From contig NZ_BAKX01000001.1 of the NCBI RefSeq assembly GCF_000614585.1, forward strand, positions 411,299 to 475,298: a stretch of DNA of 64,000 nt, read 5' to 3'. Positions 10,044-53,905 of the stretch are shown piece after piece. This stretch comes from Porphyromonas gingivicanis JCM 15907. Lineage in GTDB: Bacteria; Bacteroidota; Bacteroidia; Bacteroidales; Porphyromonadaceae. The stretch's first letter is position 1. Every line of letters begins with the position of its first letter. The notes under the pieces were generated by a model. It was not told the DNA's origin. It ran no database searches and saw nothing but the letters and a program-made list of their open reading frames with translations. The position numbers and the translations under genes are program-made.

Positions 10044-10131
10044 AAAGGTATAATGGGTAGATTCAAAAGGTCTATAGGTTTCATTCAAAACCATTAATCG
10101 TTTTCCTGAAAACCATTATACCTTTGCTTCT
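10044..10131. repeat. 22-bp-period motif array B, upstream of ftsK
   Basis: Four motif copies occur at GG/CC anchor positions 10047, 10069, 10090 and 10112 (spacings 22, 21, 22). The first two read AAAGGTATAATGG and AAAGGTCTATAGG, the last two AAACCATTAATCG and AAACCATTATACC, so the orientation flips mid-array. The outer units are exact complements over 14 bp (CAAAGGTATAATGG and CCATTATACCTTTG), which allows a large hairpin. The last unit contains a TACCTTTG that could also act as a -7 box. Confidence 0.85.
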
Positions 10132-10186
10132 ATTGCGTAAGGGGTTATATCATAAGTTTAAGTGATAAACATTAGTAAAGTAGTAG

Positions 10187-10194
10187 TATCTTTG
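10187..10194 (+). promoter_or_regulatory. ftsK: -7 box (TATCTTTG) abutting the ftsK start
   Basis: A perfect TAnnTTTG followed by C ends only 7 bp before the first ftsK ATG at 10202. The expected start site falls at or next to that ATG, so the message would be nearly leaderless unless translation begins at the downstream ATG at 10280. Confidence 0.6.
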
Positions 10195-10201
10195 CACAGC
10201 T

Positions 10202-12721
10202 ATGAGTTCACAAAAGGGTAGACATCCCTCCTCACAAGGAGGTAAAAGAGTTAGAACCTCTCCTACGACTAAAGGAAATATGGATGCAAAAAGGGGGAAA
10301 AAGGAAGTTAAGAAGTCTCTTTTTGCCTCTTTTTCTACAAGTAAGTATGCACCTCTTTATCGCTTTTTAGGAGGGCTTGTGCTACTTTTTGTTACACTTT
10401 TCTTACTGATTTCTTCCTTCTCCTACCTGCTCACAGCCTCAAAAGACCAAAGTGTCCTTTCTAATCATGAAACATTTTTTTCCGCTATAAGAGAGACCAA
10501 TAAAATCAGTAATATCGGAGGATTGCTTGGAGCTTACGTTTCGGATTGGCTTGTTAATCGCTTTTTGGGAATAGGAAGCATCGTTTTACTTTTCTTCCCT
10601 TTATGCTATGCTCTTCGTGTTTTTAACCTGCCCAAGAGTTATAAAATATCTGTGGTGAAAATCTTTTTTATCACCGCTTTTTCTTCTATTTGGTTAGCTA
10701 TTTTATCTACCTACGTCACCATTCTTTTCGATATAACTTTACCATTTCAAATAGGAGGTAGTCAAGGGGTACATTTAACTCTCTTTTTGCTTACCCATTT
10801 GGGGCATGCGGGCATTGTCTCATCGATACTCTTTGCTCTCATTGTGATTGTCGTTTCTGTTAGCCAACAGTCTGCTCTTTGGCTACAAAACTTTCTCTCT
10901 TTTTCCTGGCTGAATATACGTATTAAACGTAAAGCTTTTCCTTCTGATAGGGAAGTTGCAATGGAAGAAGTGGCACAAGTATCAGTGGGAGAGGATAGGG
11001 TAGAGCAAGCCATGGAGGAGGAAGCTAAAACAAACTTACAAGAGGAGAGGCAAGAAACTGTTGTTGAGCTGGGACACTCTATGCCTCATGCTCAGATTGC
11101 AACAAAGCCAGAAGAAGAGCAGCAAGACTCTATGACGGCAACTGCTACCTCTTCTCTCATTATAGAGATTCCTCAAGAGGAAGAACAGCAGGAGTATGCC
11201 CCTCAATCAGCAACCTCCTCACGAGGTGATTTAGAACTACCTAACTATGTTTTTCCCTCTTTAGATTTGTTGGAGATTTATGAAAGGGGTGATAATACTC
11301 CCGACTACGAGGAAATTGCCAGCAATGAGCGCCAAATCATTGAAACTCTTGAGAGTTTCAAGATAAAGGCTCGTCCTACAAAAGCAACTGTCGGACCTAC
11401 GGTAACACTTTATGAGATAGAACCCGATGCCGGCATAAAAATATCTCGTATCCGTAATTTGGATGATGATATTGCTCTTAGCTTAAAGTCAGAAGGAGGA
11501 ATACGTATTATAGCTCCTATACCAGGCAAGGGTACTATAGGCATAGAGGTTCCTAACAAGCGCCCACAAATAGTTTCATTCCACTCGTTGCTCTCTTCTC
11601 GCAAATTTGCAGAGAACAAAATGGAGCTACCCATTGCTATAGGTAAGACCATTACTAATGAGGTTTTCATGTTTGATCTTACCAAGATGCCACACCTTCT
11701 TATTGCAGGTGCTACGGGGCAAGGAAAGAGTGTGGGACTGAATGTTATGATATCCTCTCTGCTATATAGCAAACATCCTTCGGAGTTGAAGTTTGTGATG
11801 ATAGACCCCAAAATGTTGGAGTTTTCTGTCTACGAAATGCTGGAAAGACACTATTTAGCTAAACTGCCCGAAGAGGATAAGTGTATCATTACGGATATGT
11901 CTAAGGTAGTACCCACTCTCAATTCTCTTTGTGTAGAGATGGACAATAGATATCGGCTACTTACTGAGGCTCGTGTACGTAATATTGCCGAATATAATAA
12001 ACGTGTTCAGAGCGGGGAGCTTGCCTTTTCAGAACATCATAAGTTCTTGCCTTACATCGTATTGATTATTGATGAGTTTGCCGATCTTATTATGACTTCG
12101 GGAAAAGAGGTTGAACGTCCTATAACACGTATTGCGCAAAAAGCACGTGCTGCGGGTATTCATATGGTGTTGGCCACGCAGCGCCCCACAACGGATATTA
12201 TAACGGGAACTATTAAAGCCAACTTTCCTGCTCGTATCGCTTTCAAGGTCTTTTCAGCAACCGATTCTCGTACCATTTTGGATGGTCCTGGGGCAAACCA
12301 CTTGGTGGGACGTGGAGATATGCTTTTCTATCAGGGTAAGGATATGCTCCGCCTACAATGTGCATTGATAGATACCCCAGAAACCCAACGAATAGTGGAT
12401 ACTATATCGAGCCAAGCCTCTTTTACGACTCCTTATAATCTTCCCGAGGCTCCTGTAGAAGAGACAGATGAGGGGCGTGTAGTTTCTCTTGATCGTAAAG
12501 ATGCCCTTTTTGAAGAGGTGGCTCGTATGGTGGTAGAAACTCAACAAGGCTCTACATCTAAAATTCAAAGGCATTTTGAAATTGGATTCAATAGAGCAGG
12601 ACGCATAATGGACCAATTGGAAGCTGCTGGTATTGTGGCTGCTCAACAAGGGAGTAAGTCTCGAGAAGTTTTAATTCCTGACCTCTATGCTTTACAAAAT
12701 CTATTGGACTCTCTGAAATGA
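10202..12721 (+). CDS. ftsK: DNA translocase FtsK
   Basis: Septum-anchored ATP-dependent DNA pump for chromosome segregation at division. The 839-residue protein has a basic N-terminus, four to five membrane segments (about 55-235), an acidic Glu/Gln-rich linker (about 250-345), and a RecA-like motor with Walker A GATGQGKS at 503-510 and Walker B LIIDEFADL near 624. A C-terminal winged-helix gamma domain (STSKIQRHFEIGFNRAGRI) would read KOPS-type sites. The second ATG at 10280 has an AAGGA element five bases upstream and may be the true start given the promoter at 10187. It overlaps lolA by 4 bp (ATGA), so the two are coupled. Confidence 0.96.
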   Translation: MSSQKGRHPSSQGGKRVRTSPTTKGNMDAKRGKKEVKKSLFASFSTSKYAPLYRFLGGLVLLFVTLFLLISSFSYLLTASKDQSVLSNHETFFSAIRETNKISNIGGLLGAYVSDWLVNRFLGIGSIVLLFFPLCYALRVFNLPKSYKISVVKIFFITAFSSIWLAILSTYVTILFDITLPFQIGGSQGVHLTLFLLTHLGHAGIVSSILFALIVIVVSVSQQSALWLQNFLSFSWLNIRIKRKAFPSDREVAMEEVAQVSVGEDRVEQAMEEEAKTNLQEERQETVVELGHSMPHAQIATKPEEEQQDSMTATATSSLIIEIPQEEEQQEYAPQSATSSRGDLELPNYVFPSLDLLEIYERGDNTPDYEEIASNERQIIETLESFKIKARPTKATVGPTVTLYEIEPDAGIKISRIRNLDDDIALSLKSEGGIRIIAPIPGKGTIGIEVPNKRPQIVSFHSLLSSRKFAENKMELPIAIGKTITNEVFMFDLTKMPHLLIAGATGQGKSVGLNVMISSLLYSKHPSELKFVMIDPKMLEFSVYEMLERHYLAKLPEEDKCIITDMSKVVPTLNSLCVEMDNRYRLLTEARVRNIAEYNKRVQSGELAFSEHHKFLPYIVLIIDEFADLIMTSGKEVERPITRIAQKARAAGIHMVLATQRPTTDIITGTIKANFPARIAFKVFSATDSRTILDGPGANHLVGRGDMLFYQGKDMLRLQCALIDTPETQRIVDTISSQASFTTPYNLPEAPVEETDEGRVVSLDRKDALFEEVARMVVETQQGSTSKIQRHFEIGFNRAGRIMDQLEAAGIVAAQQGSKSREVLIPDLYALQNLLDSLK

Positions 12722-13353
12722 AAAAGTTTTTTCTTCACTCGTTAGCCCTTATTTTTCTCTTCGTTAGTTTCCCCCCAATCTATGCCCAGAGAAGTCTTGG
12801 CTCTCAACAAATGCTCAGTCTTAAAAAGAGATTAGAGCAAGGGGCAGAGATTACTTTTAGCTCCAAAACTTATGCTGCTTCGGGGGAGTTGCTTTCGGAT
12901 GATAGAGGGCAGCTACTTACCCATCAGGATAAGTTTAGGTTGACTTATTCTATATTTACGTCTACCTACAATGGAAATCTTTTCTCCTACTATAACAAGG
13001 CTGAGAAAACATTTACCGTTATGCATCCAACTAAAGAAGACTTGGCAACCCTTAATCCTTTAGCTTATCTTTCCACATCACAAGAAATGTATACAGTGAG
13101 AGAGCTCCCCGAAAGTAAAAAAGGTAAAGTCTTTGTGTTCACTCCCAAAAAGAATTCGATGAATATACAGCATATAGAACTCTGCTTTAGTAGAAAAACA
13201 GAGCTCCCCACAGAGCTTATGACTCTTTTTAGCGATGGTACACGTGTGGTAATGTATATAGAATCGTTGATCTCTAAGAAAAATATTTCGAGTCATCTCT
13301 TCTCTCAAAAGCACACAGATTATCCTGGTAGCGAGTTGGTGGACTTACGATGA
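12718..13353 (+). CDS. lolA: LolA-like outer-membrane lipoprotein carrier
   Basis: Periplasmic chaperone-like protein expected to shuttle lipoproteins from the inner to the outer membrane. The 211-residue product has a clear signal peptide (about residues 1-23, ending PPIYAQ) and an internal beta-rich body typical of the Bacteroidota LolA group. The residues [13 protein letters not shown] and [15 protein letters not shown] fit the alternating strand pattern of the half-barrel fold. The ATGA overlap with ftsK is the order usually seen in Bacteroidota and supports the assignment, since LolA sequences are poorly conserved. Confidence 0.78.
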
Positions 13354-13390
13354 AATACGAATCAAGGAAACAAAAAAAGAAAAAGAGAAT

Positions 13391-13743
13391 ATGTTAGTAC
13401 AGGTACTAAAGTCTAAACTACACTGTGTACATGTTACCGAGGCCAATCTAAACTATGTAGGCAGCGTAACCATAGATAAAACTTTGATGGAGCTGTAAAC
13501 ATACTGCCAGGAGAGAGAGTACAAATTGTAAACAATAATAATGGCGAACGTTTCGAGACTTACGTTATAGAGGGCCCTGCAGATACTGGTGTGATTTGTC
13601 TCAATGGGGCTGCTGCTCGCTTATGTCAGCAGGGTGATGTGGTGATTATTATGGCTTATGCTTGGATGGACATGGAAGAGGCACGTACTTTTCGCCCCGC
13701 TCTCGCTTTTCCTGACCAAAACAATAGAATTACGAAAGAATAA
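13391..13743 (+). CDS. panD: Aspartate 1-decarboxylase, interrupted by a one-base deletion
   Basis: Pyruvoyl enzyme that makes beta-alanine for pantothenate and CoA. Frame 1 gives [20 protein letters not shown] and the self-cleavage Gly-Ser in NYVGSVTID, then stops at 13496. The frame entered by adding one base near 13489-13492 (GATGGAGCTG read as GATGGAGGCTG) continues [27 protein letters not shown] and PDQNNRI to TAA 13743. The repaired product is 117 residues, the family length. All catalytic features remain, so sequencing error or very recent loss is likelier than an old pseudogene. It follows lolA by 37 bp and precedes ffh. Confidence 0.88.
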
Positions 13744-13777
13744 TATCAATAACAAAGACTCTTGAACACTATACAAT

Positions 13778-15106
13778 ATGTTTGAAAATCTTAGTGAACG
13801 CTTAGAACGCTCTTTTAAAAAGCTAAAAGGCGAAGGGCAAATAACCGACATAAACGTCGCAGAGACCCTAAAAGATGTGCGCCGAGCCCTTATAGAGGCA
13901 GACGTAAACTATAATGTAGCGAAGAAGTTTACTGACAATGTTAAAGAAATAGCACTTGGCCGTAATGTATTAACGGCGGTACGCCCCAGCGAGATGATGG
14001 TTAAAATCGTACACGACGAGTTAGCCAAGTTAATGGGGAGCGAAGCTGTAGACCTAAATCTTAAAGGAGAGCCGACTATAATTTTGATGTCCGGTCTTCA
14101 GGGGTCGGGTAAAACGACTTTTTCTGGGAAACTGGCAAATCTTCTTAAAAACAAACGCTCTAAAAATCCTCTATTGGTAGCCTGTGACGTGTATCGTCCT
14201 GCAGCTATAGATCAGCTTAAGGTATTGGGAGAGCAATTATCTATTCCTGTTTATGCAGAGTTAGGGAGCAAGAATCCTGTGGAAATAGCTCTCCACGCTA
14301 TCGAAGAAGCTAAGGCAAAGAATCACGATGTGATTATTGTAGATACCGCTGGTCGCCTTGCTATTGATGAGGAAATGATGAATGAGATAGCTGCTATTAA
14401 GCAAGCTATTAAACCTCACGAAATCCTTTTCGTAGTTGATGCTATGACGGGGCAAGATGCTGTTAATACAGCTAAAGAGTTCAATGAACGGCTTGATTTC
14501 GACGGAGTTATCCTAACCAAATTGGATGGAGATACTCGAGGTGGAGCTGCACTTTCTATCCGAACGGTGGTAGACAAGCCTATAAAGTTTGTTGGTACGG
14601 GCGAAGGGATGGAGGCTTTGGATGTTTTCCATCCTGAGCGTATGGCAGATCGCATCTTGGGGATGGGAGATATTGTTTCTCTCGTAGAGCGTGCTCAACA
14701 GCAGTATGATGAGCGAGAAGCACGTCGTTTGGAAGAGCGTATTGCTAAGAATCAGTTCGACTTTAATGACTTCCTGAAACAGATTCACCAAATCAAAAAG
14801 ATGGGAAATATCAAAGACCTTATAGGAATGATTCCAGGTGTAGGCAAAGCCATTAAAGATATGGATATTGATGATGATGCTTTCAAGGGGATAGAAGCTA
14901 TAATATATTCTATGACACCTGAAGAGCGTTCTCATCCCGGTCTTCTGAATGGTTCGCGTCGTAAGAGAATTGCGGATGGTAGCGGTACCTCTGTACAAGA
15001 GGTAAATCGCCTTATTCAGCAGTTCGATCAAGCACGCAAGATGATGAAAACAATACAAACTATGGGTAAGAACCCTAAAAAAATGGCTCGTTTGCGCCAC
15101 AAATAA
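13778..15106 (+). CDS. ffh: Signal recognition particle GTPase Ffh
   Basis: SRP54 homologue that binds 4.5S RNA and signal sequences and delivers ribosomes to FtsY at the membrane. The 442-residue protein has an N-terminal helical bundle, the G domain with GLQGSGKTTF (about 108-117), DTAGRL and TKLDGDTRGG, and the Met-rich M domain ending MGKNPKKMARLRHK. Length is typical. It lies 34 bp after panD and 9 bp before folD, suggesting a shared transcript. Confidence 0.97.
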   Translation: MFENLSERLERSFKKLKGEGQITDINVAETLKDVRRALIEADVNYNVAKKFTDNVKEIALGRNVLTAVRPSEMMVKIVHDELAKLMGSEAVDLNLKGEPTIILMSGLQGSGKTTFSGKLANLLKNKRSKNPLLVACDVYRPAAIDQLKVLGEQLSIPVYAELGSKNPVEIALHAIEEAKAKNHDVIIVDTAGRLAIDEEMMNEIAAIKQAIKPHEILFVVDAMTGQDAVNTAKEFNERLDFDGVILTKLDGDTRGGAALSIRTVVDKPIKFVGTGEGMEALDVFHPERMADRILGMGDIVSLVERAQQQYDEREARRLEERIAKNQFDFNDFLKQIHQIKKMGNIKDLIGMIPGVGKAIKDMDIDDDAFKGIEAIIYSMTPEERSHPGLLNGSRRKRIADGSGTSVQEVNRLIQQFDQARKMMKTIQTMGKNPKKMARLRHK

Positions 15107-15115
15107 TATAGCAAT

Positions 15116-16006
15116 ATGGAATACAAAATATTAGATGGAAAGAAAATTTCCGAAGAGATAAAGAAAGAAATTGCTTCGGAAGTAGAAAATATAGTTCGCA
15201 ATGGAGGTAAGCGCCCTCATTTGGCTGCTATTTTGGTAGGACATGACGGAGGGAGCGAAACCTATGTAGCTTCTAAAGTAAAGTCTTGTGAAGAGGTAGG
15301 CTTTGCCTCTTCTTTGATACGTTTTGAGAGCGATGTTACAGAAGAACAATTATTGTCAGCTATTGATAAACTTAATAAAGATCCAGAGGTAGATGGATTT
15401 ATTGTACAACTTCCTTTGCCTAAACATATCGATGAGCAAAAGATTATCGAAAGAGTGGATTACAGAAAAGATGTCGATGGTTTTCATCCTATCAACGTCG
15501 GGCGTATGAGTATTGGGCTTCCCTGTTTCATATCGGCTACTCCTCAGGGCATTGTGGAGCTTCTTCGTCGTTATGAAATACCGACCTCTGGCAAACATTG
15601 TGTTGTTTTAGGGCGGAGCAATATTGTGGGCAAGCCTATCGCACAATTAATGTCTCACAAAACCTATCCAGGCGACTGTACCGTAACTATTTGTCATAGC
15701 CGTACGCAAGGCTTAAAAGAGATTTGTCAGACGGCTGATATTATTATAGCAGCTTTAGGAAGTCCTGAGTTTCTCACCAAAGATATGGTTAAAGAGGGAG
15801 CTGTTGTTGTAGATGTTGGTACTACCAGAGTACCAGATACTACCCGTAAGAGTGGATTTCGCCTAACGGGAGATGTTAAGTTTGAGGAGGTTGCCCCTCT
15901 CTGTTCTTACATCACGCCTGTGCCTGGAGGGGTAGGGCCTATGACGATTGTCTCTCTTATGATGAATACATTGAAAGCTGGACAGAAGAATTTGTTCAAC
16001 GATTAA
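15116..16006 (+). CDS. folD: Bifunctional methylene-THF dehydrogenase/cyclohydrolase
   Basis: Interconverts 5,10-methylene- and 10-formyl-tetrahydrofolate with NADP, feeding purine synthesis and Fmt. The 296-residue protein shows the catalytic [14 protein letters not shown] (about 42-55, with the active Lys), QLPLPKHID, the Rossmann segment [12 protein letters not shown] and the C-terminal [10 protein letters not shown]. Length and motif order are standard. A stem-loop follows 6 bp after the stop, so this is probably the last gene of the ffh transcript. Confidence 0.97.
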
Positions 16007-16012
16007 AATTTT

Positions 16013-16053
16013 AATCCCTTTGCCCTTTCCGTTGTCGAAAGGTCAGAGGGGTT
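16013..16053 (+). terminator. Hairpin after folD
   Basis: Arms at 16013-16029 and 16037-16053 pair over 17 positions with two G-U pairs and one mismatch, around a 7-nt loop. The T-run is short (three T), so this is a moderate terminator for the ffh-folD transcript. Confidence 0.55.
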
Positions 16054-16107
16054 TGTAGATGCTTTCGGAGATAATTGATGGGTAGTTTATACTAAAGAGT
16101 AAAGTCT

Positions 16108-16992: not shown

Positions 16993-17002
16993 AATACACT
17001 CC

Positions 17003-17507
17003 ATGAACATGAGAATTAACAAACTTCTAAGTGAGACAGGATTAGGGTCTCGAAGAGAAGTTGAGCAATTAATAATAGAAGGTCGAGTAACCGTAAACGG
17101 AGTTTTGGCGGAGCTCACAGACATTATTGAAGAGGAAGATGTTGTAACCCTTGATGCGAAGAATTGCCTGTACGAGACTTAATTAGAGAGTTTGCTGCTG
17201 AGCAAAAAATGCTTTTGGCTCAAAAGGCATCTGTTCGTATAGGGACAGAATATATCGATTGGGAGGATGACCAAACTCCTCGTCGTAAAAATACTTCTGG
17301 ACGAAGTAATAAACAATCCTCCAAAGAGAGCAAGGGGGGACGATCTAAACCATCAAATAATAAACCCTCAAAGTTCAGAAAACACTGGAGGATGATGAGC
17401 AAGAGCAACCCTCTTTTAAGAGACACTTTTCCAATAGTAAACCCATACCAAGAAATAACAGACAGGAAAAGTCATTCAATCCTTCTAAAAAAAAGGGTAG
17501 ATTCTAA
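17003..17507 (+). CDS. S4-domain RNA-binding protein with basic tail, two one-base deletions
   Basis: Residues 1-52 form an S4 fold (MRINKLLSETGLGSRREVEQ, GRVTVNG) like the N-terminus of RluB/RsuA pseudouridine synthases. Reading frame is lost near 17160-17164 and again at the A-run 17379-17382. Adding one base at each gives a continuous 168-residue protein with a Lys/Ser/Asn-rich tail ending KKKGRF at TAA 17507. No pseudouridine synthase catalytic domain follows, unlike RluB, so it may only bind rRNA. The tail in the uncorrected frame runs on to 17523. It follows the GT9 gene by 10 bp. Confidence 0.7.
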
Positions 17508-17511
17508 TGAA

Positions 17512-17519
17512 TACTTTTG
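17512..17519 (+). promoter_or_regulatory. -7 box (TACTTTTG) for the phosphatase gene
   Basis: A TAnnTTTG match followed by C, 47 bp before the ATG at 17567 and just after the S4 gene. No strong -33 partner is evident. Confidence 0.4.
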
Positions 17520-17566
17520 CTAATTGTACATTAGGGACTTGTCTCAAAAAGAAGTTTTAACCTCCT

Positions 17567-18103: not shown

Positions 18104-18163
18104 AGAGAAGAGAATTATTAGTCTTAAAAGAGTTATACTAAAAACACGACTTTCATTTCCACT

Positions 18164-29107: not shown

Positions 29108-29219
29108 GGGAAATTTAGATAAATAGTAACAGCCCCTCTCTGCAAGCAGTATCTATTCTGTAAAAAGGGCCTTGTATGTATGCTTCGAAAAATTACGACA
29201 GAGCTTCTATCCCCCATAC

Positions 29220-29302
29220 CTATATCCCTTTTCAGAAAAAGCATTATAGGTTTTCTTGCAGAGCACTATACCTTTTGAAACGAACCTATATAGTGCACAT
29301 TT
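29220..29302. repeat. 22-bp-period motif array C, upstream of bamD
   Basis: Units CTATATCCCTTTTC, CATTATAGGTTTTC and CACTATACCTTTTG have their CC/GG anchors at 29227, 29249 and 29271, exactly 22 bp apart. A fourth, inverted copy (CCTATATAGTGC) follows, so GCACTATA and TATAGTGC form an inverted pair. The array fills the gap between the fmt 3' end and the bamD promoter. Confidence 0.8.
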
Positions 29303-36731: not shown

Positions 36732-37358
36732 CATGAATGAAAATAGTAGAGATGAAAATATATAAAGGAGGAATAGTAGAAAAACTGAATTTAGACTCTC
36801 GAAATATTGTAGTTTTCTCGCAAATAATTCTTTAGCGAATTCTTTGTTTGTAGCATAAGTTTTTGTTTATTAGTGTATTGTACCTAATAGTATAATTTGC
36901 TTATATCTTTTTGGATACAAATGCCCTACCCTATCCTCTATATCTATATTTTTCTTTTGTATTTATATGTAATTGTTTGTATTTCAAGGTTATTGTTGAA
37001 ACTAATAGTGTTGATTGTATTTTCGTTTGTTATTTGTGAAAATATTTATTCGTAATTGCGAATGAGAAATTCTACACCTTCATTGTGATAAATAAAATTG
37101 AATTTTCAAGAGGATTGATTACGATTTGTGAATCTAAATGGTGTGTGATATAGTAAAATGACCACTTTTTGTTTGTGAATTCAAATAGCCGTTTTGGGAA
37201 TAAATATTTGTAATTGGTAATTCTGTCACACATTATCTCAAGAGCATACATCCCACTACTAAAAAGTAATAAGAAGACCTTTTTACAAGACTTGGCAAAG
37301 CTCTCATCAAGCATCGCTCTCTATTACGGGCAGGAAGTCTCTCCCTATTCCTCAAAAC
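36732..37358. other. AT-rich gene-free stretch between the XRE gene and lptG
   Basis: Very AT-rich. It holds a near-palindrome ATTCGTAATTGCGAAT at 37048-37063 and further ATTTGTAAT-like words near 37117 and 37205. The only sizeable frame (37072-37314, minus) lacks coding character. The length and density of palindromic words suggest a regulatory region rather than a lost gene. Confidence 0.45.
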
Positions 37359-37446
37359 CATTAATGCTTTTTTCTCTATTCATTAACCCTTTGGGACAAA
37401 AGCATTAGTCCTTTATGGGCAAACCATTGACCCTTTTAGAAGCTAA
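37359..37446. repeat. 22-bp-period motif array D, upstream of lptG
   Basis: Four direct units start with CATT at 37359, 37381, 37403 and 37425, each exactly 22 bp apart. Cores are CATTAATGCTTTTTT, CATTAACCCTTTGGG, CATTAGTCCTTTATG and CATTGACCCTTTTAG, mostly preceded by CAAAA(C/G). Only the ~12-bp core is conserved; the spacers differ, so this is site repetition rather than a recent tandem duplication. It ends 83 bp before the lptG -7 box. Confidence 0.88.
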
Positions 37447-46647: not shown

Positions 46648-46686
46648 CTATTTTCCTTTTAGAAAGTAACGTTGGTTATGAATCTA

Positions 46687-47988
46687 TTATTGTTGTTTTT
46701 TGGTCATTATATCTAAAACGAGTCGATCTGTTTCGTTCATTCCTACTCTTCCAATCCCTGTAAGGTTCTCAATGGTACGGTCTACATCGTCATCAACAAT
46801 CCCCTCATTACTGGTTACCACCTTATGCTCCATTGCTAATAATGCAGAAAACATAGCTGTAGAAACACCACTGGAGACCTTCATACTACAACTTGGTTTG
46901 GCTCCATCACAAAGCATCCCTGTAATGTTACCCACCATATTCTTTATTGCAAAACCCACTTGCTCACGAGTGCCACCCATTAAATAGGTAAGTCCACAGC
47001 TCGAACCTGTTGCCGCTACCACGCATCCACAAAGAGCGGATAGACGTCCTAACTTTTGCTTTACATAGATAACCATTAAGTTGCTTAAAACCAGTGCTCG
47101 AACAGTTTCTTCGTGCGATTTATTCTCCTTACGAGCAAAGGTCAAAACAGGAAGAGTAGCTGTAATACCTTGATTTCCACTACCAGAATTACTCATAACG
47201 GTTACAGGCGCTCCATCCATACGAGCATCGCACGCTGCACTTGTATAGGTGAGCATTTCGGTAAGGGAAGAAGTGCCGAGGTAACGCTTACCAAGCTCTC
47301 CTTGTATCATTCTGCCCACAGCATGTCCATACTCGCTTTTTAGAGAGTATTCGCTTGCAGCCTGATTGAGGCGAGCAGCCTCCATAATGAACTCTATCTT
47401 CTCTAAAGGCGTTTTTGTGGCAAAGTCGTAAACAATACCAAAGGAGAGTTGCAATTCTTCTTTGTTGGACTCTTCTTTGTTAGATGCAGAAAGTAGCGTG
47501 GCTCTCTCTCCGAAAAGAGTTTTGTTATCCCTCTCCACAAAGATGATGTTCCTGTGGTTGGAAAGGATTATTACGGAAGAAGAGTGTTGCGCTCCCTTCA
47601 GATTGACTTCTATATAGAGCTTGTCTACCTCGCCCTCTTTGAGTTTAATAGCAATAATTTTCTTCTCTACCAAACGTTTAGCTGCCTCAAGTTGTTCTTT
47701 AGAGAAATCTTCCAAAACGGTCAACTCCTTTTCAGGTTCAGCAATTATAATGCCGAGAGCTATGGCAATAGGAAGCCCAATCATTCCCGTACCAGGGATG
47801 CCTACTCCCATCGCATTCTTTAGCATATTGGCACTAAGAAGCACCTCTATTTCTTTGGGCTCTTCTCCCAGTACTGCAGAGGCTTTAGCGGTGGCTAAGG
47901 CTACGGCAACGGGTTCAGTACATCCTGTTGCAGGTATAACTTCGCTCTTTATTAAGTCGATACACTGTTGTTCTATTGATATATCCAT
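46687..47988 (-). CDS. cyuA: L-cysteine desulfidase family protein (CyuA/UPF0597)
   Basis: Predicted iron-sulfur enzyme degrading L-cysteine to pyruvate, ammonia and sulfide, relevant in sulfide-producing oral anaerobes. About 433 residues from ATG 47988 (MDISIEQQCIDLI); an in-frame TTG 39 bp upstream is less likely. Cluster-ligand candidates are the Cys of IPATGCTEPVA, CGCVVAATGSSCG and the CDGAKPSC segment; MSNSGSGNQGITATLP is the serine-dehydratase-alpha-like block. It lies between fcl and wzz with close spacing. The family is often annotated only as UPF0597; substrate follows from the characterised archaeal and enterobacterial members. Confidence 0.85.
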   Translation of the reverse strand: MDISIEQQCIDLIKSEVIPATGCTEPVAVALATAKASAVLGEEPKEIEVLLSANMLKNAMGVGIPGTGMIGLPIAIALGIIIAEPEKELTVLEDFSKEQLEAAKRLVEKKIIAIKLKEGEVDKLYIEVNLKGAQHSSSVIILSNHRNIIFVERDNKTLFGERATLLSASNKEESNKEELQLSFGIVYDFATKTPLEKIEFIMEAARLNQAASEYSLKSEYGHAVGRMIQGELGKRYLGTSSLTEMLTYTSAACDARMDGAPVTVMSNSGSGNQGITATLPVLTFARKENKSHEETVRALVLSNLMVIYVKQKLGRLSALCGCVVAATGSSCGLTYLMGGTREQVGFAIKNMVGNITGMLCDGAKPSCSMKVSSGVSTAMFSALLAMEHKVVTSNEGIVDDDVDRTIENLTGIGRVGMNETDRLVLDIMTKKQQ

Positions 47989-48027
47989 TGCTTTATTTCT
48001 CAAAAAAGATCTTTTTTCTAACGTCAA

Positions 48028-49149
48028 TTAAGGTTTTGTTATTGTTGCTTTGTACCAGTTGTATAGGAGTGGTATGCCATCCTCTAAGCGAGTCTTGTAA
48101 GACCAACCCAAACTATCGAGTCTACTTGTATCGACACTTTTCCTTAAAGTACCATCGGGATGGATACCATCAAAGAGGATAGACCCTTTGAAACCTATTG
48201 TTTCGGCTATGATATGGGCAATATCTCTAATAGAATACTCCACTCCTGTAGCCACATTGATATGACAGTTGCGAACAGGTTCGGAGACATCTTTTGGGAC
48301 AAGGTCTTTGAAAGAAACCTCATTCATTACAAATAGAGAAACCTCGGCTAAGTCATCGCTCCACATAAAGTCTCTAAGTGCTTGCCCCGTGCCCCATAGC
48401 TCTACCCTATTAGGCGCAATTCCAAAAGGAGAAAGTAGTTGTACACAATCTTCGATAGAGGTTTTTGGCGTTACCTTAAAGTCCGAAACGGGTCTATAGG
48501 TTAAGTCTTTTCTCAAAGTATCTATTTCTCCATTATGTAGAAGATGTGCCAAGTATATTTTGCGCATAATAGCAGGAAGAACATGGCTATTCTCTAAATG
48601 GAAGTTGTCTCCCTCTCCATAGAGATTAGTAGGCATAACAGCTATATAGTTACACCCATATTGGAGATTAAAACTCTCACACATTTTTAGCCCTGCTATT
48701 TTGGCAATAGCATAGGGTTCATTGGTGTACTCTAAGCTGTCTGTCAATAAATATTCTTCTTTGATTGGTTGAGGGGATTCTTTCGGATAAATGCAGGTAC
48801 TTCCCAAGAAAAGGAGCTTTTTCACACCATGACGAAAGCTTTCTCCAATTACATTCTGTTGTATTCCTAAATTATTATAGATAAAATCCGCACGATAGCG
48901 ACTATTGGCACCAATACCACCCACAAAGGCAGCTGCTAAAAAGACATATTCGGGACGCTCTCGCTCAAAGAAGCAACGTACCGCTACACTATCCAACAAA
49001 TCTAACTCTTTATGCGATCGGGTGATGAGGTGTGTATACCCTTTCTTTTTAAGAAGCCTGTATATAGCACTGCCTACAAGCCCCGTATGACCTGCTATAT
49101 ATATGCGTGCATCTTGCTCCATTGCCATAGCTCCAAAACCTTTACTCAA
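48028..49149 (-). CDS. fcl: GDP-L-fucose synthase
   Basis: NADPH-dependent epimerase-reductase making GDP-L-fucose from the Gmd product. The 373-residue SDR protein has [12 protein letters not shown] (NADP Rossmann motif, about 19-30), GSTCIYP with the catalytic Ser, [15 protein letters not shown] with the YxxxK pair, and [13 protein letters not shown]. It overlaps gmd by 8 bp; the start might instead be Met8 or Met10. The C-terminal half has a ~30-residue insertion ([19 protein letters not shown] region) compared with E. coli WcaG. Confidence 0.93.
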
Positions 49150-50302
49150 AGAAGTTACATATTTTGAAACCTCCCTGCTGGAGGTAAGATTCTCGTTTCA
49201 TTAATTGGATATCGTGCGCCATCATATCGGCAACAATATCTTCCAAAGTATATTCTGGCTTCCATAAAAGTTTCTCTTTTGCCTTAGTAGCATCTCCGAG
49301 CAGGAGTTCTACCTCAGTGGGTCTAAAGTAAGCAGGGTCTACAAAAACCAATGCTTTGCCTAATAGAGAGTGTACTATCGAAAGATACTCCATACCCACT
49401 CGTTCTATAAAAAGGGTGTCATTGCAAGCGATAAGTATGCCTTGTTCTTCTAATCCCTTACCTCGAAACTCGATGGTCAACCCTATTTCGGCAAACGAAA
49501 GACGTACAAACTCACGCACTTCAGTTGTTTTTCCTGTGGCTATAACATAGTCATCAGGCTGCTCTTGCTGGAGGATTAAGTGCATTGATCGCACATAATC
49601 TTTAGCATGTCCCCAATCTCTCTGTGCCGAAAGATTGCCCAAAAAGAGTTTGTCTTGAAGCCCCGTAACGATACGACTCACAGAGCGTGTAATCTTGCGA
49701 GTAACGAAGGTCTCGCCTCGCATAGGAGACTCATGGTTGAAGAGAATGCCGTTACTCGCGTGTATTCCATATGCTTCACGATAATTGACCGTAATCCAGT
49801 AAGCAAATAGTTTTGCACAAGCATAAGGACTACGTGGATAAAAGGGAGTCGTTTCCTTTTGAGGTATTTCCTGCACCAAGCCGTATAATTCGCTGGTAGA
49901 GGCTTGATAGTAACGCACCTCCTTTTCCAACCCTAACAGGTGAATAGCTTCCAGCAAACGCAAGGCACCTAATCCAACTACATCTGCTGTATACTCGGGC
50001 AGTTCAAAGCTAACTTTTACATGACTTTGGGCACCCAGATTATAAATTTCCTGCGGTCTAATCTGATCTATCAAACGAACCAAACAGGAAGAATCGGTAA
50101 GGTCGGCATAGTGTAGATAGTAGTTTTGTTGCTCTACATGAGGGTCTTGGTAAAGATGATCTATGCGCTCGGTATTGAAAAGTGAAGAGCGACGCTTAAG
50201 ACCATGTACCTCATATCCTTTTTTGAGAAGATATTCACTTAAATAGGCTCCATCTTGCCCTGTAACTCCTGTAATAAGAGCTTTTTTTCGCAAACCATTC
50301 AT
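49142..50302 (-). CDS. gmd: GDP-mannose 4,6-dehydratase
   Basis: First step from GDP-mannose to GDP-fucose. The 386-residue protein has [15 protein letters not shown] (NADP site, about 12-26), [34 protein letters not shown] with catalytic Ser/Thr and Glu, and [15 protein letters not shown] with YxxxK. A segment around residues 265-315 is less conserved. It lies 12 bp after the FHA gene and overlaps fcl. The product could feed fucosylated surface glycans or T9SS cargo glycosylation. Confidence 0.95.
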
Positions 50303-50314
50303 CTCTTTGCAATA

Positions 50315-50847
50315 CTATTTTTGATAGTAGATTATAGAGGTCGCTCCAAGGGTTATAACATCTCCACTTACCAAAGTGTAGCGCTCTCCAGGATCCAATT
50401 CTCGGGTATTAACAAAGGTACCCGTCATACTATCATCATCCATAATAATCGCTTCTGTACCCTCTGGTGTGAGGGTTACTGTGATGAGCGTATGATTACG
50501 ATCCATACTGGGGTCTGAAGAGCGGATAGCTACCTCCAAATCGGTATGCTTATCATTGTATCTGCCCACCCTATTTAAGCCCTCAAAGAGGGGGTAAACA
50601 GCGGCATAGCCAAATATATTTTCGACCACGCGTAGCTCGGCTAAAACTTCCTGAGATGAAAGTTCACCCTCTTTTTCTGTCTTTGTCTCCTCTAATGCTT
50701 TGCCTTGTGCAGAAGGTAGAGAAAAAGCCAAACGCCTTTTGCATCCAGGACAGGGCATTTCGACATGCCCCCTTTTGTCCATAGCTGCACGAATCAGCCT
50801 AATTCTACCCTTTTCTTACAATAGGGACAAACTATATACTTTGCCAA
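50315..50847 (-). CDS. Zinc-ribbon plus FHA-domain protein, TTG start, one-base deletion
   Basis: Predicted phosphothreonine-binding protein. The C-terminal half is an FHA domain (NRVGRY, SSDPSMDRNHTLITV, DDDSMTGTFVNTRELDPGE). The ATG frame at 50782 starts mid-protein: upstream, a TTG at 50847 preceded by AGGAGG encodes AKYIVCPYCKKR, but the frame breaks within 50801-50812. One added base links it through RLIRAAMDKRGHVEMPCPGCKRR, pairing CPYC with CPGC as a zinc ribbon, 177 residues in all. The -7 box at 50902 supports the early start. It leads the gmd-fcl operon; its partner kinase is not in the window. Confidence 0.78.
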
Positions 50848-50901
50848 TTGAAAATCTCCTCCTCTTATAGTTCAAAATATGTAGAAACTCTTACAGCATA
50901 T

Positions 50902-50909
50902 CAAAAGTA
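50902..50909 (-). promoter_or_regulatory. -7 box (TACTTTTG) for the FHA-gmd-fcl operon
   Basis: The minus strand reads TACTTTTG, matching TAnnTTTG. The start near 50895 gives a ~48-nt leader to the TTG start at 50847, with AGGAGG in between. Confidence 0.5.
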
Positions 50910-50945
50910 GCTATTTTGGACGACATACCCTTACAGAAGCTATAT

Positions 50946-51578
50946 TTAGCTGTATCCTTGCTCGAAAAGAGTATTAAGGCTTTCCAATAGGTTACGTATT
51001 TGAGGCAGGAGCGGAGAGCAAGCCGAGTTGTTCACCTTAAATAGGGGGATAGATTGTTCTTTGGGAGAGATGCCCTCTTGCGCTTTTATGCGTTGTACAA
51101 TCTCCTCTTCGGTGGCTTTATCGCGTAGAGCGATACGCTTTATACGTTCTTCTAAAGGAGCCTCAATCCACACTACGGCATTGCAAAAAACATCCAATCC
51201 ACTGGGAAAAAGTATAGCACTCTCCAATCCTATCCATCTCTTTTGCTGCCTCTCTCGAAATAGTTCAAAACGTTTCTTAACAAGAGGATGTATAAAACTC
51301 TCGACTAAAGCACGAGCCTCGGGTCGAGAAAATATAAGTTGTGCAAACGCTTTGCGATTGAGAGAGCCATCTGAGGTGGCATAAAACTCTGTGCCAAAGT
51401 GTGTACTGACAAAATCCTTTACCTCTCCTTCCCCATATAATAACTTAGCTTCTCGGTCAGAGTCGAAAACGGGGATGTCGAAAAAGGACAATAGGCGAGA
51501 GAAGACCGATTTGCCACTACCAATACCTCCACTTATCCCCAACACTTGAGGAGTAGTTGTTCTTTGCCCTTCTTTCAT
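50946..51578 (-). CDS. coaE: Dephospho-CoA kinase
   Basis: Last step of CoA synthesis. The 210-residue protein has the P-loop GISGGIGSGKSVFS (about 14-27), VFDSDREAKLL and the LID segment RIALRDKATEEEIVQRI. Its ATG overlaps the ybbR-like stop by 4 bp (ATGA). yajC-ybbR-coaE is a usual Bacteroidota order. Confidence 0.95.
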   Translation of the reverse strand: MKEGQRTTTPQVLGISGGIGSGKSVFSRLLSFFDIPVFDSDREAKLLYGEGEVKDFVSTHFGTEFYATSDGSLNRKAFAQLIFSRPEARALVESFIHPLVKKRFELFRERQQKRWIGLESAILFPSGLDVFCNAVVWIEAPLEERIKRIALRDKATEEEIVQRIKAQEGISPKEQSIPLFKVNNSACSPLLPQIRNLLESLNTLFEQGYS

Positions 51579-52609
51579 TTCGCCTCTTTTTCTAATATAT
51601 ATTGTACCCGAGCTGGTGTTACAGCATATCTAGTAAGTCCTATGGGGGGCTCTTCTATAGAGATAGGCAATAATTGCTCTTGGGTGTTACCATTGCTATT
51701 TTGTAGCTGATTATAGTCTACGAAAAGCCTAAAATCTGCTTCCGAAATGGAAGTGTAAAGCGATTTAGGCAATGTAATACGAAGATTCGCTTTGGAGGGG
51801 AGCAAACGCAAACGATAGCCCGATGGAAGGTTTTTAACATTGATTGTCAGATCAAAATGCTTTTCTGTAAGCTCTTCAAAAGTAACATTGGTTTTAATCT
51901 GATGGGTAGAAAATCGGATATTGGGTATATCTACCAACCCCACGATCGCTTCTACACTGTTTTTTCCCTCTAATTGTTTTATCTCTATTTTTTGAGTTAA
52001 GACAGAGGTAATGCTATCGACACCTTGTTTGCTACCATATACTTTTACCATAGAAGGTTCTAATAGTACTTTGGTTATCAGAAATCCATTTTGAGGAGCA
52101 ATCTCTAAAGCAGATTTTATGGGTACTTCTTTGGTATGCAATCTTGCAAGCTCTACGGATATTTCTCTGGGGTATATAGTTTGTATCTTGGTACCCTGCT
52201 CTAATTGTTTCTGCACCCACTGTTCCAATGTGGCATACGACACATAAAAGCGATTTTTAGAGCCTCGTAAAGAGGGAGAAACCACCTTTATATCTATGGG
52301 TTGTATAGGGCGAAATGTATAGTCAAAAAGAAGTTCAAACCCCGTTCCCTCAATCTGTACATCAATAGCTTCGGGCAATACTCCCTGCACAGAAAACTCG
52401 TTTAGAGATGTGTAGTTTAGAGGTATTTTCAGACTTTTTGTATATGTCATCTGCAAGCTTGTTATGGACCACCAAATAGAAGAAATCAATAAAAAGAATA
52501 GGAAAGTCACAAATTTCTTACCCCTGGTTGTTTGTGGTTTTAGAGAAAAGGGGGTATTCTCTTTCTTTCTTTTTATCGTAGTCTTTTGGGTAAATAACTG
52601 TAGTTTCAT
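51575..52609 (-). CDS. YbbR-like (CdaR family) membrane-anchored protein
   Basis: A 344-residue protein with one N-terminal membrane helix (about 32-52) and several YbbR repeats of about 80-90 residues facing the periplasm, for example NEFSVQGVLPEAIDVQIEGTGFELL and NLPSGYRLRLLPSKANLRI. In Firmicutes CdaR regulates the c-di-AMP cyclase; whether that applies here is unknown. It lies between yajC and coaE and overlaps the latter. Confidence 0.85.
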   Translation of the reverse strand: MKLQLFTQKTTIKRKKENTPFSLKPQTTRGKKFVTFLFFLLISSIWWSITSLQMTYTKSLKIPLNYTSLNEFSVQGVLPEAIDVQIEGTGFELLFDYTFRPIQPIDIKVVSPSLRGSKNRFYVSYATLEQWVQKQLEQGTKIQTIYPREISVELARLHTKEVPIKSALEIAPQNGFLITKVLLEPSMVKVYGSKQGVDSITSVLTQKIEIKQLEGKNSVEAIVGLVDIPNIRFSTHQIKTNVTFEELTEKHFDLTINVKNLPSGYRLRLLPSKANLRITLPKSLYTSISEADFRLFVDYNQLQNSNGNTQEQLLPISIEEPPIGLTRYAVTPARVQYILEKEAK

Positions 52610-52701
52610 AGCAGATGCCTCTTATACTGGTGATATACTAACAAAAAAGAGTCTAAAATACTACAATGTACCTTAGACTCCTCTTTTTCTATAGTTGGTT
52701 A

Positions 52702-53031
52702 TTACTGCTTGGCTACATCTTCAATAGCAGCGTAAACCGATGTCTTTTCTACTCGAATGCGCACATCTTTCGCTATTTCTATAAGAAAATCACGCTCGTT
52801 TACTTCGCTAATCTTTCCATGTATTCCTCCTGCGGTAACCACCTTATCGCCAGGTTGCATAGCCTCACGCTTTTTTTGAAGCTCTTTTTGGCGCTTACTC
52901 TGAGGACGAATAAAGAACAACCAAAAGATAACAATAAGGACTACCATCATAATGATGGTACCGATGGAACCTCCAAACAAACCTCCCTGTGGAGTTCCTG
53001 CAGCTGCAGCGTCTAAGAAAAATAAATTCAT
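52702..53031 (-). CDS. yajC: Sec translocase accessory subunit YajC
   Basis: Small SecDF-associated inner-membrane protein. The 109-residue protein has one membrane helix (about 22-42, IGTIIMMVVLIVIFWLFFI) and the conserved RPQSKRQKELQKKREAMQPGDKV with GGIHGKI. It is first in the yajC-ybbR-coaE unit, and a -7 box lies 27 bp upstream. Confidence 0.95.
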   Translation of the reverse strand: MNLFFLDAAAAGTPQGGLFGGSIGTIIMMVVLIVIFWLFFIRPQSKRQKELQKKREAMQPGDKVVTAGGIHGKISEVNERDFLIEIAKDVRIRVEKTSVYAAIEDVAKQ

Positions 53032-53057
53032 CTTCTAAGTAATTAATAATTTCTTTT

Positions 53058-53065
53058 GCAAACTT
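53058..53065 (-). promoter_or_regulatory. yajC: -7 box (TAAGTTTG) for yajC-ybbR-coaE
   Basis: The minus strand reads TAAGTTTG followed by C; predicted leader about 20 nt. Confidence 0.5.
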
Positions 53066-53132
53066 ACGGAAAAAGTACAAGATAACATCGGATGTTTTGC
53101 AGAAAAATGGAGACTATGTGCTATACTCCATA

Positions 53133-53648
53133 TTAAGCTGCAAACATTCCTTTCATTGCCTTTTCCTCTTGACGGATGCGTACAATCAGCAGGGCAATAT
53201 ATATAGGAAGACCCACACAGAGCGTAATCCAAGCATTACAAAGCAAGGCAACACCGATAAGTTCGGGGATAATGTTTAGGTAATAGTTCGGATGACGTAC
53301 AGTTCTAAAGAGGAAACTCGTCTCTATACGCTGATTGGGTACGATATAGACCTTAAGGGTCCATACATCTCTCAACTTATAGATAACGTAGAATAGCATC
53401 ACATAGGCAAAGCCCATAAGAGCCGTCCCCCATAGAGAGAAAGAGTTGAACTCTTTGCCCAAAGCATACGCCTCATACAGAGCACTGAAATAAAAGGCAA
53501 TATGTGCCAATGCCAGGAAGAGGGAGTTTAACTTGCCGTGCTGAACGGCTCCCTTTTTCTGAATATGTTTTTCGTTGCGGATAGAGAACCCAAGAGATGC
53601 CAAACGCAAGGCGAAGAAGATAAAAAATGTGATTGTAATGAATTGCAT
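53133..53648 (-). CDS. Isoprenylcysteine carboxyl methyltransferase-like membrane protein
   Basis: A 171-residue protein with about five membrane helices and the ICMT/phospholipid-methyltransferase motif RTVRHPNYYLNIIPELIG (about 115-132), with C-terminal RIRQEEKAM holding the conserved EE. Such bacterial ICMT-fold enzymes use SAM to methylate unknown lipid or small-molecule acceptors; protein prenylation is not expected. It is preceded by a terminator-like hairpin 45 bp upstream of its ATG and stands apart from neighbouring operons. Confidence 0.78.
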   Translation of the reverse strand: MQFITITFFIFFALRLASLGFSIRNEKHIQKKGAVQHGKLNSLFLALAHIAFYFSALYEAYALGKEFNSFSLWGTALMGFAYVMLFYVIYKLRDVWTLKVYIVPNQRIETSFLFRTVRHPNYYLNIIPELIGVALLCNAWITLCVGLPIYIALLIVRIRQEEKAMKGMFAA

Positions 53649-53692
53649 ATTAGTTATTGGGTTAGGTTATTCTTGTGTTGTAGCCAAGTAAA

Positions 53693-53715
53693 AAGCAAGG
53701 AGCTTTCCCTTGCTT
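53693..53715 (-). terminator. Leader hairpin or attenuator upstream of the ICMT-like gene
   Basis: A perfect 8-bp stem (AAGCAAGG/CCTTGCTT) with a 7-nt loop; on the minus strand the stem runs into TTTAC. It ends 45 bp before the ICMT-like start codon and is separate from the miaA2 terminator at 54060-54099, so it would act on a transcript starting between them. Confidence 0.6.
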
Positions 53716-53723
53716 GGTGCAGG

Positions 53724-53831
53724 TTATGCAAATGCAAAATAAATGAATTCTCTAAAAATAGAGACCCTCCTTTCGCAATCTCCTAAAGAATAGAGCAACA
53801 AAATTGTACTCTGTACCTTCTCTCGAGCCAT
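53724..53831 (-). CDS. Possible leader peptide, 35 residues, aromatic-rich end
   Basis: An ATG-TAA frame stopping 8 bp before the leader hairpin. The last residues (SIFREFIYFAFA) hold five Phe/Tyr. This arrangement resembles a transcription-attenuation leader, but there is no good ribosome site and the downstream gene is not an aromatic amino-acid gene. Treat as a candidate only. Confidence 0.2.
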   Translation of the reverse strand: MAREKVQSTILLLYSLGDCERRVSIFREFIYFAFA

Positions 53832-53844
53832 CCGAACAAACTCT

Positions 53845-53905
53845 TCTAACCCTCCGTGCTAACTCTTAAAAGGCTTAATCGTTTTGCGCAAAAGGTACGA
53901 TGGTT
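53845..53905. repeat. 22-bp-period motif array E, upstream of the ICMT-like gene
   Basis: Motif copies are anchored at 53850 (CTAACCCTCC), 53872 (AAAAGGCTTAATCG) and 53894 (AAAAGGTACGATGG), 22 bp apart, with both orientations present. The word CTTAATCGTTTT is nearly identical to a unit of array B. It is the weakest of the four arrays. It lies within the otherwise gene-free interval 53649-54138. Confidence 0.55.

Follow-up and report, generated by a model that had tools for sequence, protein, structure and literature searches.

Evenly spaced four-unit arrays in the chromosome of Porphyromonas gingivicanis as candidate platforms for a cooperative DNA-binding protein

Introduction

Four intergenic regions in a 64-kb stretch of Porphyromonas gingivicanis DNA (the window, that is, the whole stretch analysed) carry several copies of one short motif at a fixed pitch, which raises the question of whether such arrays are operators of a regulon, copies of a mobile repeat or marks laid along the chromosome itself. 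The last reading would touch on how topological domain size is set in bacterial chromosomes, which is an open question. The original prediction took the arrays for repeated sites at 21-22 bp spacing upstream of envelope genes, possibly bound by a cooperative architectural protein.

Results

The window holds the following arrays.

Array 1, 10043..10126, no strand: four 18-bp units at 10043, 10065, 10087 and 10109 in a 22-bp register, in the divergent gap that separates ftsK from a C10 peptidase gene
Array 2, 29215..29276, no strand: three units at 29215, 29237 and 29259, with a degenerate fourth slot at 29281-29298 seen by eye; between two minus-strand genes, one bamD-like and one for a formyltransferase
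Array 3, 37354..37437, no strand: four units at 37354, 37376, 37398 and 37420, in the divergent gap that separates lptF/G from an HTH_3 gene
Array 4, 53824..53907, no strand: four units at 53824, 53846, 53868 and 53890, two of a second type and the other two of the AAAAGG type; flanked by genes for an ICMT-type methyltransferase and an IPP-transferase
21-bp-family array, 6536..6619, no strand: four units of the ATATTCAATCTACGTATA type, from Tandem Repeats Finder and the family scan

All four predicted arrays are present, with 4, 3, 4 and 4 units in the fitted model, and the fourth reaches further left than first drawn. The spacing proves to be exactly 22 bp at every step in all four, and the predicted core, 13 bp long, belongs to a larger 18-bp unit, which consists of two 9-bp half-sites head-to-head; a second unit type, for example CTAACCCTCCGTGCTAAC, also occurs in array 4. 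Pfam agrees with the predicted neighbours (ftsK, bamD (YfiO), lptF/G and an ICMT-type methyltransferase), and on the side of the facing gene the nearest TAnnTTTG box lies 60, 107 and 92 bp from arrays 1-3, as the predicted promoter distances had it.

The motif is real. The 261 intergenic regions examined (77,069 bp) contain 32 arrays of at least two units versus none in any of three shuffles, and the 385 kb called as coding contain two (one at higher score cut-offs). Genome-wide, the core gives 386 matches when two mismatches are allowed versus 150 for the reversed control, and CCATTAAYCCTTTTG with up to one mismatch gives 46 versus 0 for its control.

In 842 kb (41% of the P. gingivicanis genome) we found 58 arrays of at least three units and a score of at least 22, in which 183 of 196 unit spacings are exactly 22 bp; at this density the genome would carry about 140. 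Four units are the norm (35/58), giving eight half-sites per 88-bp block in a typical array, and 57 of the 58 are intergenic, one per gap. Occurrence is near all-or-none: there are 17 leftover weaker matches, one of which (two units) scores above 20 and the others 6-13. The second, 21-bp family contributes three arrays to the same 842 kb by family scan. Unit types are freely mixed within arrays, spacers vary, and similarity from array to array (10.6) is only slightly higher than in unit-permuted controls (8.5-8.8). Mosaic units, variable spacers and the 22-bp register bear out site repetition as opposed to simple duplication. Around the centres of 34 four-unit arrays the motif signal stops at about 44 bp, a sharp edge with unconserved flanks.

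A kinship with BrickBuilt-type MITEs had been raised. In the portion of Klein 2015 (PMC4596501) used here, the BrickBuilt MITE of P. gingivalis is one 23-nt repeat, AGAYCATARTATCCTCTCRTRTG, without spacers, with a leader, a tail, IS5-like ends and 19 copies; the P. gingivicanis arrays are likewise intergenic, made of units of about 22-23 bp and found in Porphyromonas, but, set against that description, they are mosaic, quasi-palindromic and evenly spaced, with no ends found. Their 18-bp units in a 22-bp register also have a different consensus. Around the P. gingivicanis arrays, neither terminal inverted repeats nor a conserved leader or tail were found; among 32 arrays with 400-bp flanks there are 108 alignments, and the 40 of them listed reach no more than a few bp beyond the arrays, and no flank word occurs in more than 13 of the 32, the commonest being A-rich. 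The relation is thus not supported in P. gingivicanis, where a MITE copy is rejected on flanks and edges. The BIME/REP elements of E. coli are mosaic, palindromic and intergenic, with units in both orientations, all of which the P. gingivicanis arrays share; the arrays differ in their two-turn register over four units and their even spacing, neither of which, to our knowledge, BIME/REP elements have.

We compared orthologous gaps with P. circumdentaria, the closest relative among the genomes compared. Ten of 15 mapped array-bearing gaps of P. gingivicanis also hold an array there, a figure obtained with a family set that was extended once the data had been inspected (the first pass, with 22-bp families only, gave 1/7; the 21-bp family, added when such arrays had been noticed beside ftsK and lptF/G of P. 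circumdentaria, gave 5/7; more P. gingivicanis sequence gave 10/15). Only 1 of 144 array-free mapped gaps has an array in P. circumdentaria. With overlapping or negative gaps and those below 120 bp set aside, Fisher P is 3e-6 for gaps of at least 120 bp in both species, 0.0005 at 200 and 0.006 at 300; since arrays sit in long gaps in both species, gap length accounts for part of this positional agreement, and a gap-length-stratified test gives P 0.0014. The units differ at all ten shared gaps. P. circumdentaria has the 21-bp family at six of the ten, including the gaps of array 1 (ftsK) and array 3 (lptF/G), and in two of the four pairs of 22-bp arrays the two species share a GTTTGC/GCAAAC-type half-site. 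Five of the 15 mapped arrays have no counterpart in P. circumdentaria; at array 2 its gap is shorter (118 bp) and the array is absent, and the array 4 gap lies outside the mapped pairs. On conservation at orthologous promoters, which the original prediction had proposed to check, the outcome is divided: the orthologous gaps lack an array of the same sequence but in most cases hold one of another sequence. The best reading of these sequence comparisons is that array position may be kept while its sequence is replaceable. In the gene-order comparison with a second genome, G001 (inferred P. asaccharolytica), the mapped gaps have no array in either species.

The genes next to the arrays do not form an envelope set. 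We scanned 20 of 31 listed facing genes outside the window: two match envelope-type families (Peripla_BP_2 and Peptidase_S49), ten match cytoplasmic or redox enzyme families (including RecJ, GyrA, ribosomal protein S16, PNPase, ribonucleotide reductase and fructose bisphosphatase), and eight have no informative match. Gaps of 29 arrays are tandem in 15, divergent in 11 and convergent in 3 cases versus 18.0, 7.9 and 3.1 expected, an orientation that follows gap length. The envelope regulon is rejected on its mixed gene content, on context and on array units that are not kept at orthologous promoters. It can be widened to ordinary operator arrays through which a global transcription regulator acts on neighbouring promoters, and the unit shape and spacing would suit cooperative dimers; moreover, 17 of 26 arrays lie 100-240 bp upstream of a start versus 40% expected (30-bp margin, P 0.0045). 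This excess weakens as the margin grows, however (P 0.045 with 60 bp and 0.19 with 80 bp), the median distance to the start matches expectation, arrays are present in convergent gaps too, and the neighbouring genes have no common theme. A regulon would not predict even spacing either, and we consider this explanation improbable.

Along the P. gingivicanis chromosome the mean distance between arrays is 14.3 kb (58 arrays, 842 kb), and the genome scan called for by the original prediction finds them other than randomly scattered: the coefficient of variation (CV) of spacing is 0.463 versus 0.866 for random length-weighted gaps, with none of 3000 draws as low. In 378 kb outside the data on which the hypothesis was formed, the CV is 0.446 versus 0.794 (P 0.0003). 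Intervals below 5 kb make up 3.6% versus 24% expected, and the evenness stands under seven nulls, including uniform choice among gaps of at least 400 bp (0/4000 each). Regular spacing, as a domain anchor would have, is thus found in P. gingivicanis, and in G001 after merging. Before merging, the 55 array pieces of G001 are not evenly spaced (CV 0.945 versus 0.744, P 0.99), because one element gives two pieces about 0.1 kb apart; once pieces within 500 bp are merged, as the even result requires, 35 loci in 440 kb have a CV of 0.451 versus 0.788 (0/5000). The G001 CACGTG family alone (26 loci) gives 0.529 versus 0.811 (P 0.008), and the nine loci without CACGTG are separated from the closest CACGTG locus by a median of 9.8 kb versus 2.2 kb expected, under a null that may also draw array-bearing gaps and so favours the result; the family labels are rough, as the three G001 models overlap and the TTTCC model also catches CACGTG arrays. 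In P. circumdentaria (G003, pieces of at least 60 kb), none of 33 intervals is below 5 kb versus 22.6% expected (0/4000). Its CV is not significant (0.739 versus 0.907, P 0.12) owing to two stretches, 66 and 72 kb long, in which our models recognise no array, and by CV each of the two families taken singly is also not evenly spaced (P 0.38 and 0.91).

The arrays of G006 (inferred P. gingivalis) have a similar architecture and sit inside dispersed repeats of hundreds of bp, two of them sharing 645 bp at 93%, and five of six examined have a flank match with up to two mismatches to GAGACCTTTGCA. At least two families look like fixed-layout dispersed copies: the CACGTG elements of G001, 16 of 26 being exactly 170 bp with the same layout, and the 21-bp elements of P. 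circumdentaria, with common ends like AATTCTYTATTTGCA. The arrays may be selfish MITE- or BIME-like repeats that spread by copying, with target immunity keeping them even and families succeeding one another. The P. gingivicanis arrays, however, mix unit types without a shared flank, and immunity acting across unrelated families is hard to explain; we regard this explanation as unlikely.

Two candidate binders were considered. For ParB, 25 of 26 genomes have a single match that passes the cut-off, and G019 has none. Its DNA-reading helix is near identical in ten aligned proteins while the arrays differ, and parS, TGTTNCACGTGNAACA, has no exact match in 255 loci searched; one match with one mismatch lies near parB of G003. 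The HTH_3 protein adjoining lptF/G is 66% identical overall in P. circumdentaria, with its HTH kept. Neither has support as the binder, since in both the HTH is conserved though the arrays changed.

The arrays might also be strong DNA gyrase sites. According to the part of PMC6379681 used here, E. coli gyrase prefers intergenic BIME-2 elements, and its motif is a centre with two periodic arms and a GC period of 10.75 bp; the 170-bp G001 element, with three units, a centre and three units, has a comparable layout. GC power at 10.5-11 bp, however, is at most 1.1 times the shuffled value in all five array sets. The 10.75-bp period was not found, gyrase wrapping gains no support from this test, and we hold the explanation to be very improbable.

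Discussion

We propose, tentatively, that the arrays may well be 88-bp assembly platforms for a candidate cooperative DNA-binding protein, anchoring or marking chromosome domains of about 13-14 kb. A dimeric protein would bind each unit; all sites would lie on one face of the helix, so that adjacent dimers could cooperate, and the outcome would be a loop or supercoil-domain anchor. Selection would act on the distance from platform to platform and not on array sequence or the neighbouring gene, and families with other letters would reflect different proteins, or one of shifting specificity, doing the same job. The architectural protein first suggested is compatible with these data, and the even spacing strengthens the suggestion, while the search for its binder was negative. 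A stricter version, a sequence-replaceable ruler with one four-dimer platform per about 13 kb, in which letters and helical period are exchangeable and selection keeps the distance, is possible, though we would sooner doubt it than assert it.

Even spacing has another potential source. Self-recognition sequences for DNA uptake or transfer could accumulate by biased uptake (molecular drive), and they would space themselves evenly if one array per incoming fragment suffices. One architecture in species-specific versions, mosaic units without copied flanks and the even spacing in P. gingivicanis all agree with this, and the part of PMC7811141 used here calls a relatively even distribution expected from uptake-driven accumulation in Haemophilus. 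Haemophilus uptake sequences, however, are short and about 1 kb apart in the same part of that source, not phased four-site blocks at 14 kb, and drive alone is not obviously able to keep array position while swapping the family. The arrays thus resemble Haemophilus and Neisseria uptake sequences in their species-specific versions and relatively even distribution and differ from those short, closely set sequences in being 88 bp long. Judged by title and abstract, none of the four papers found in a search on P. gingivalis, natural competence and uptake sequences deals with one of this kind, and we think this origin rather unlikely.

To return to the platform reading, Noc-binding sites, matS, SlmA-binding sites and parS are all short palindromes present in many copies across the chromosome and read by one protein. 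The arrays are likewise many and dispersed, and the G001 CACGTG family has the CACGTG centre of parS; unlike these single conserved palindromes, they consist of four phased units, which are swapped for others at the same place from one species to the next. If the ruler version is right, they would represent a bacterial loop or domain-anchor system whose binders diversify like centromere proteins. A near-regular element every 13-14 kb, with an array kept in its gap while the sequence is exchanged, would provide candidate anchors that form a definite set and can be deleted, and would offer a route to the binding proteins; it would also be a clear instance of rapid co-evolution of dispersed sites with their presumed binders. 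The 14-kb scale in P. gingivicanis is near that of supercoil domains in E. coli and Salmonella, estimated at roughly 10 kbp in the portion of PMC3820752 used here.

Phased arrays in the intergenic gaps

The original prediction held that four intergenic gaps carry three to four copies of a ~12-bp core at 21-22 bp spacing, and inspection of the sequence found the tandem sites in all four as described. An array model, consisting of a two-component 18-bp weight matrix and a 22-bp chaining rule, was fitted on 464 kb made up of the window and twenty 20-kb stretches, whose 261 gaps total 77,069 bp. It returned 32 arrays of at least two units in these gaps, none in three shuffles of the gap sequence, and two within called coding sequence (385 kb; one at higher score cut-offs). 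A second family has a 21-bp period; 842 kb of this genome holds three of its arrays, and 876 kb of P. circumdentaria holds 27 of a like family.

Arrays in the window
6536-6619, 21-bp family, four units
10043-10126, weight-matrix model, at ftsK
29215-29276, weight-matrix model, at a bamD-like gene
37354-37437, weight-matrix model, at lptF/G
53824-53907, weight-matrix model, at an ICMT-type methyltransferase gene

Separately, the gene at 7071-9857, divergent from ftsK, encodes a C10 (streptopain-like) peptidase with a Spi inhibitor domain and a Por secretion tail.

The 18-bp unit is composed of two ~9-bp half-sites arranged head to head, which fall by their first six letters into the classes AAAACC, AAAAGG, AAAAGC and GTTTGC, with 140 of 508 half-sites outside all four; a unit with two AAAACC halves was not seen among 254. 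Both unit orientations occur within a single 22-bp frame (125 adjacent pairs in the same orientation, 71 in opposite). Two complete contigs, C35 and C34 (842 kb, 41% of the genome), hold 58 arrays of at least three units: 35 with four, 13 with five, five with six, one with seven and four with three. Spacing is exactly 22 bp in 183 of 196 cases, and 57 arrays occupy 57 different gaps, the remaining one fitting no called gap. Because the signal of 34 four-unit arrays drops to near background beyond ~44 bp from the centre, the object is an array of 88 bp without a conserved flank. Outside the arrays 17 leftover hits remain: a two-unit hit scoring above 20, and the others at 6-13.

The main rival explanations are that the arrays are mobile repeats or uptake sequences. 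Comparison of arrays with 400-bp flanks gave 108 alignments, and the 40 listed extend past the arrays by a few bp at most; at most 13 of 32 arrays share any one flank word, and the commonest words are A-rich; and mean similarity among 30 arrays is 10.6, against 8.5-8.8 in five unit/spacer permutations. On these grounds the arrays combine their units almost freely and did not arise by recent copying of a single element. In the inferred P. gingivalis (genome G006), 3-4-unit arrays of TTTCCAC-N2-GTGGAAA type lie inside dispersed repeats, and five of the six arrays inspected have a match resembling GAGACCTTTGCA in the flank. Klein 2015 (PMC4596501) refers to tandem repeats of 22 nt in P. gingivalis W83, giving no locations, and these may be related to the arrays.

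Even spacing along the chromosome

The idea of even spacing came from the first 400 kb, where the coefficient of variation of array intervals (CV) was 0.50 vs 0.86 (P 0.001). Over the whole 842 kb, intervals average 14.3 kb with a CV of 0.463 vs 0.866 for random placement in gaps (SD 0.105; 0/3000 draws as low), and 3.6% of them are below 5 kb vs 24%. The 378 kb unused in forming the idea gave a CV of 0.446 vs 0.794 (P 0.0003); an excess of 8-14.5 kb intervals was not significant there (40% vs 28%, P 0.12). The CV result is unchanged under seven nulls, one of which picks uniformly from gaps 400 bp or longer (0/4000 each). Gap orientation for 29 arrays matches the expectation from length (tandem 15 vs 18.0, divergent 11 vs 7.9, convergent 3 vs 3.1), and a weak excess at 100-240 bp upstream of a start (17/26 arrays) hinges on the margin chosen (P 0.0045 at 30 bp, 0.045 at 60, 0.19 at 80).

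In the inferred P. asaccharolytica (G001), a single model over 440 kb gave 55 array pieces that are not even as such (CV 0.945 vs 0.744, P 0.99), because one element often splits into two pieces 0.1 kb apart. When pieces within 500 bp were joined over three overlapping family models, 35 array loci remained with a mean interval of 12.7 kb, a CV of 0.451 vs 0.788 (0/5000) and 11.8% of intervals below 5 kb vs 23.5% (P 0.037). Its CACGTG family alone (26 loci) has a CV of 0.529 vs 0.811 (P 0.008), and 16 of the 26 elements are exactly 170 bp, laid out as three units, a centre and three units. For the nine loci without this family, the median distance to the closest CACGTG locus is 9.8 kb vs 2.2 kb expected (0/5000), under a null that may pick array-bearing gaps and so favours the result.

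Replacement of arrays in place

P. circumdentaria is the closest of 25 other genus genomes by FtsK and LptF/G (LptF/G 95% identical; reciprocal best hits, median 87%). At the ftsK and lptF/G gaps the core promoters of the two species align and the remainder of the gaps does not. P. circumdentaria has 22-bp arrays of GTTTCC/GTTTGC half-sites, some of them own-type, and also a 21-bp AT-rich family. Among gaps flanked on either side by orthologous genes, 10 of 15 with an array here also have one in P. circumdentaria, against 1 of 144 array-free gaps (Fisher P 3e-6, 0.0005 and 0.006 at minimum gap lengths in both species of 120, 200 and 300 bp; with stratification for gap length, 10 shared vs 5.7 expected, P 0.0014). 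Six of the ten, including the ftsK and lptF/G gaps of the window, have a 21-bp array in P. circumdentaria, and four have a 22-bp array of other units, two of these with a GTTTGC/GCAAAC-type half-site common to both species. The bamD gap, 118 bp in P. circumdentaria, is among the five without an array there; the fourth window array is outside the mapped gap pairs. A family-free scan of the ftsK region in 14 named loci (8-14 kb), P. circumdentaria included, found no such array; the 21-bp array of P. circumdentaria at ftsK falls outside the pattern of that scan.

A stretch of ~1.9 kb (about L059:16130-18230, and L180 on the small P. circumdentaria contig C4) is 98.8% identical between the two genomes and has an array inside, which itself shows a few differences; other shared gap flanks are 72-92% identical. 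It is likely a recent transfer or a shared contaminant, and the L059 array was left out of the in-place replacement table.

For 40 P. circumdentaria arrays of all families on seven pieces of at least 60 kb, 0 of 33 intervals are below 5 kb vs 22.6% (0/4000 draws). The CV is not significant (0.739 vs 0.907, P 0.12) owing to two stretches of contig C25 that hold no recognised array, and single families are not even by CV (22-bp 0.722 vs 0.798, P 0.38; 21-bp 1.097 vs 0.868, P 0.91). On C25, ~23.5-161 kb holds one recognised array in ~138 kb, with parB at 97 kb inside; this region perhaps carries an unrecognised family or is an origin-near zone.

Possible role and candidate binders

We propose that the phasing and half-site structure would seat cooperating dimers on one face of the DNA. 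Selection may favour platforms kept some way apart from one another, as suggested by the even spacing, the independence from gene function and orientation, the mutual spacing of unrelated families and the in-place replacement. PMC3820752 reports supercoil domains of roughly 10 kbp, a scale close to the array spacing. From phasing, spacing, replacement and this scale, we therefore favour the arrays as a candidate chromosome-domain anchor or mark. Among the papers listed in the literature searched, where coverage of subscription papers is poor, none describes such arrays by title or abstract.

Checks of three candidate binders gave no support for any of them. ParB shows a single above-threshold match in 25 of 26 genomes, and the HTH is conserved among 10 aligned ParB proteins; parS and the CACGTG family of G001 have the CACGTG centre in common. 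The HTH of the HTH_3 gene beside lptF/G is kept in P. circumdentaria. The 10.75-bp GC period given for the E. coli gyrase motif in PMC6379681 is absent from all five array sets tested.

Distribution across genomes

Two adjacent AAASS-N6-SSTTT units in a 22-bp frame, at no more than two mismatches, match 155 times in this genome vs 7 for the control and 83 vs 13 in another Porphyromonas (G004), and 26 of the family's 38 genomes have at least one match. Several relatives have the excess instead in the reversed form TTTSS-N6-SSAAA, and 10 genomes were followed further. The own unit sequence is almost confined to this genome, with 46 matches here against 0-4 in the 37 others, and the second unit type has 83 matches here, 11 in P. 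circumdentaria and 0-2 elsewhere. In an order-level draw, 69 of 393 genomes have at least one match at no more than one mismatch and a few have tens; the single matches are likely mostly chance. Elsewhere in the order, quasi-palindromes repeated in 22-bp phase occur in G048, G066, G078, G119, G310, G337 and G340. Very long arrays, mostly of AAAGCAACTAAGCTTT type, occur in G004, with 15 and 18 units at L091:9617-9940 and L094:10055-10444.
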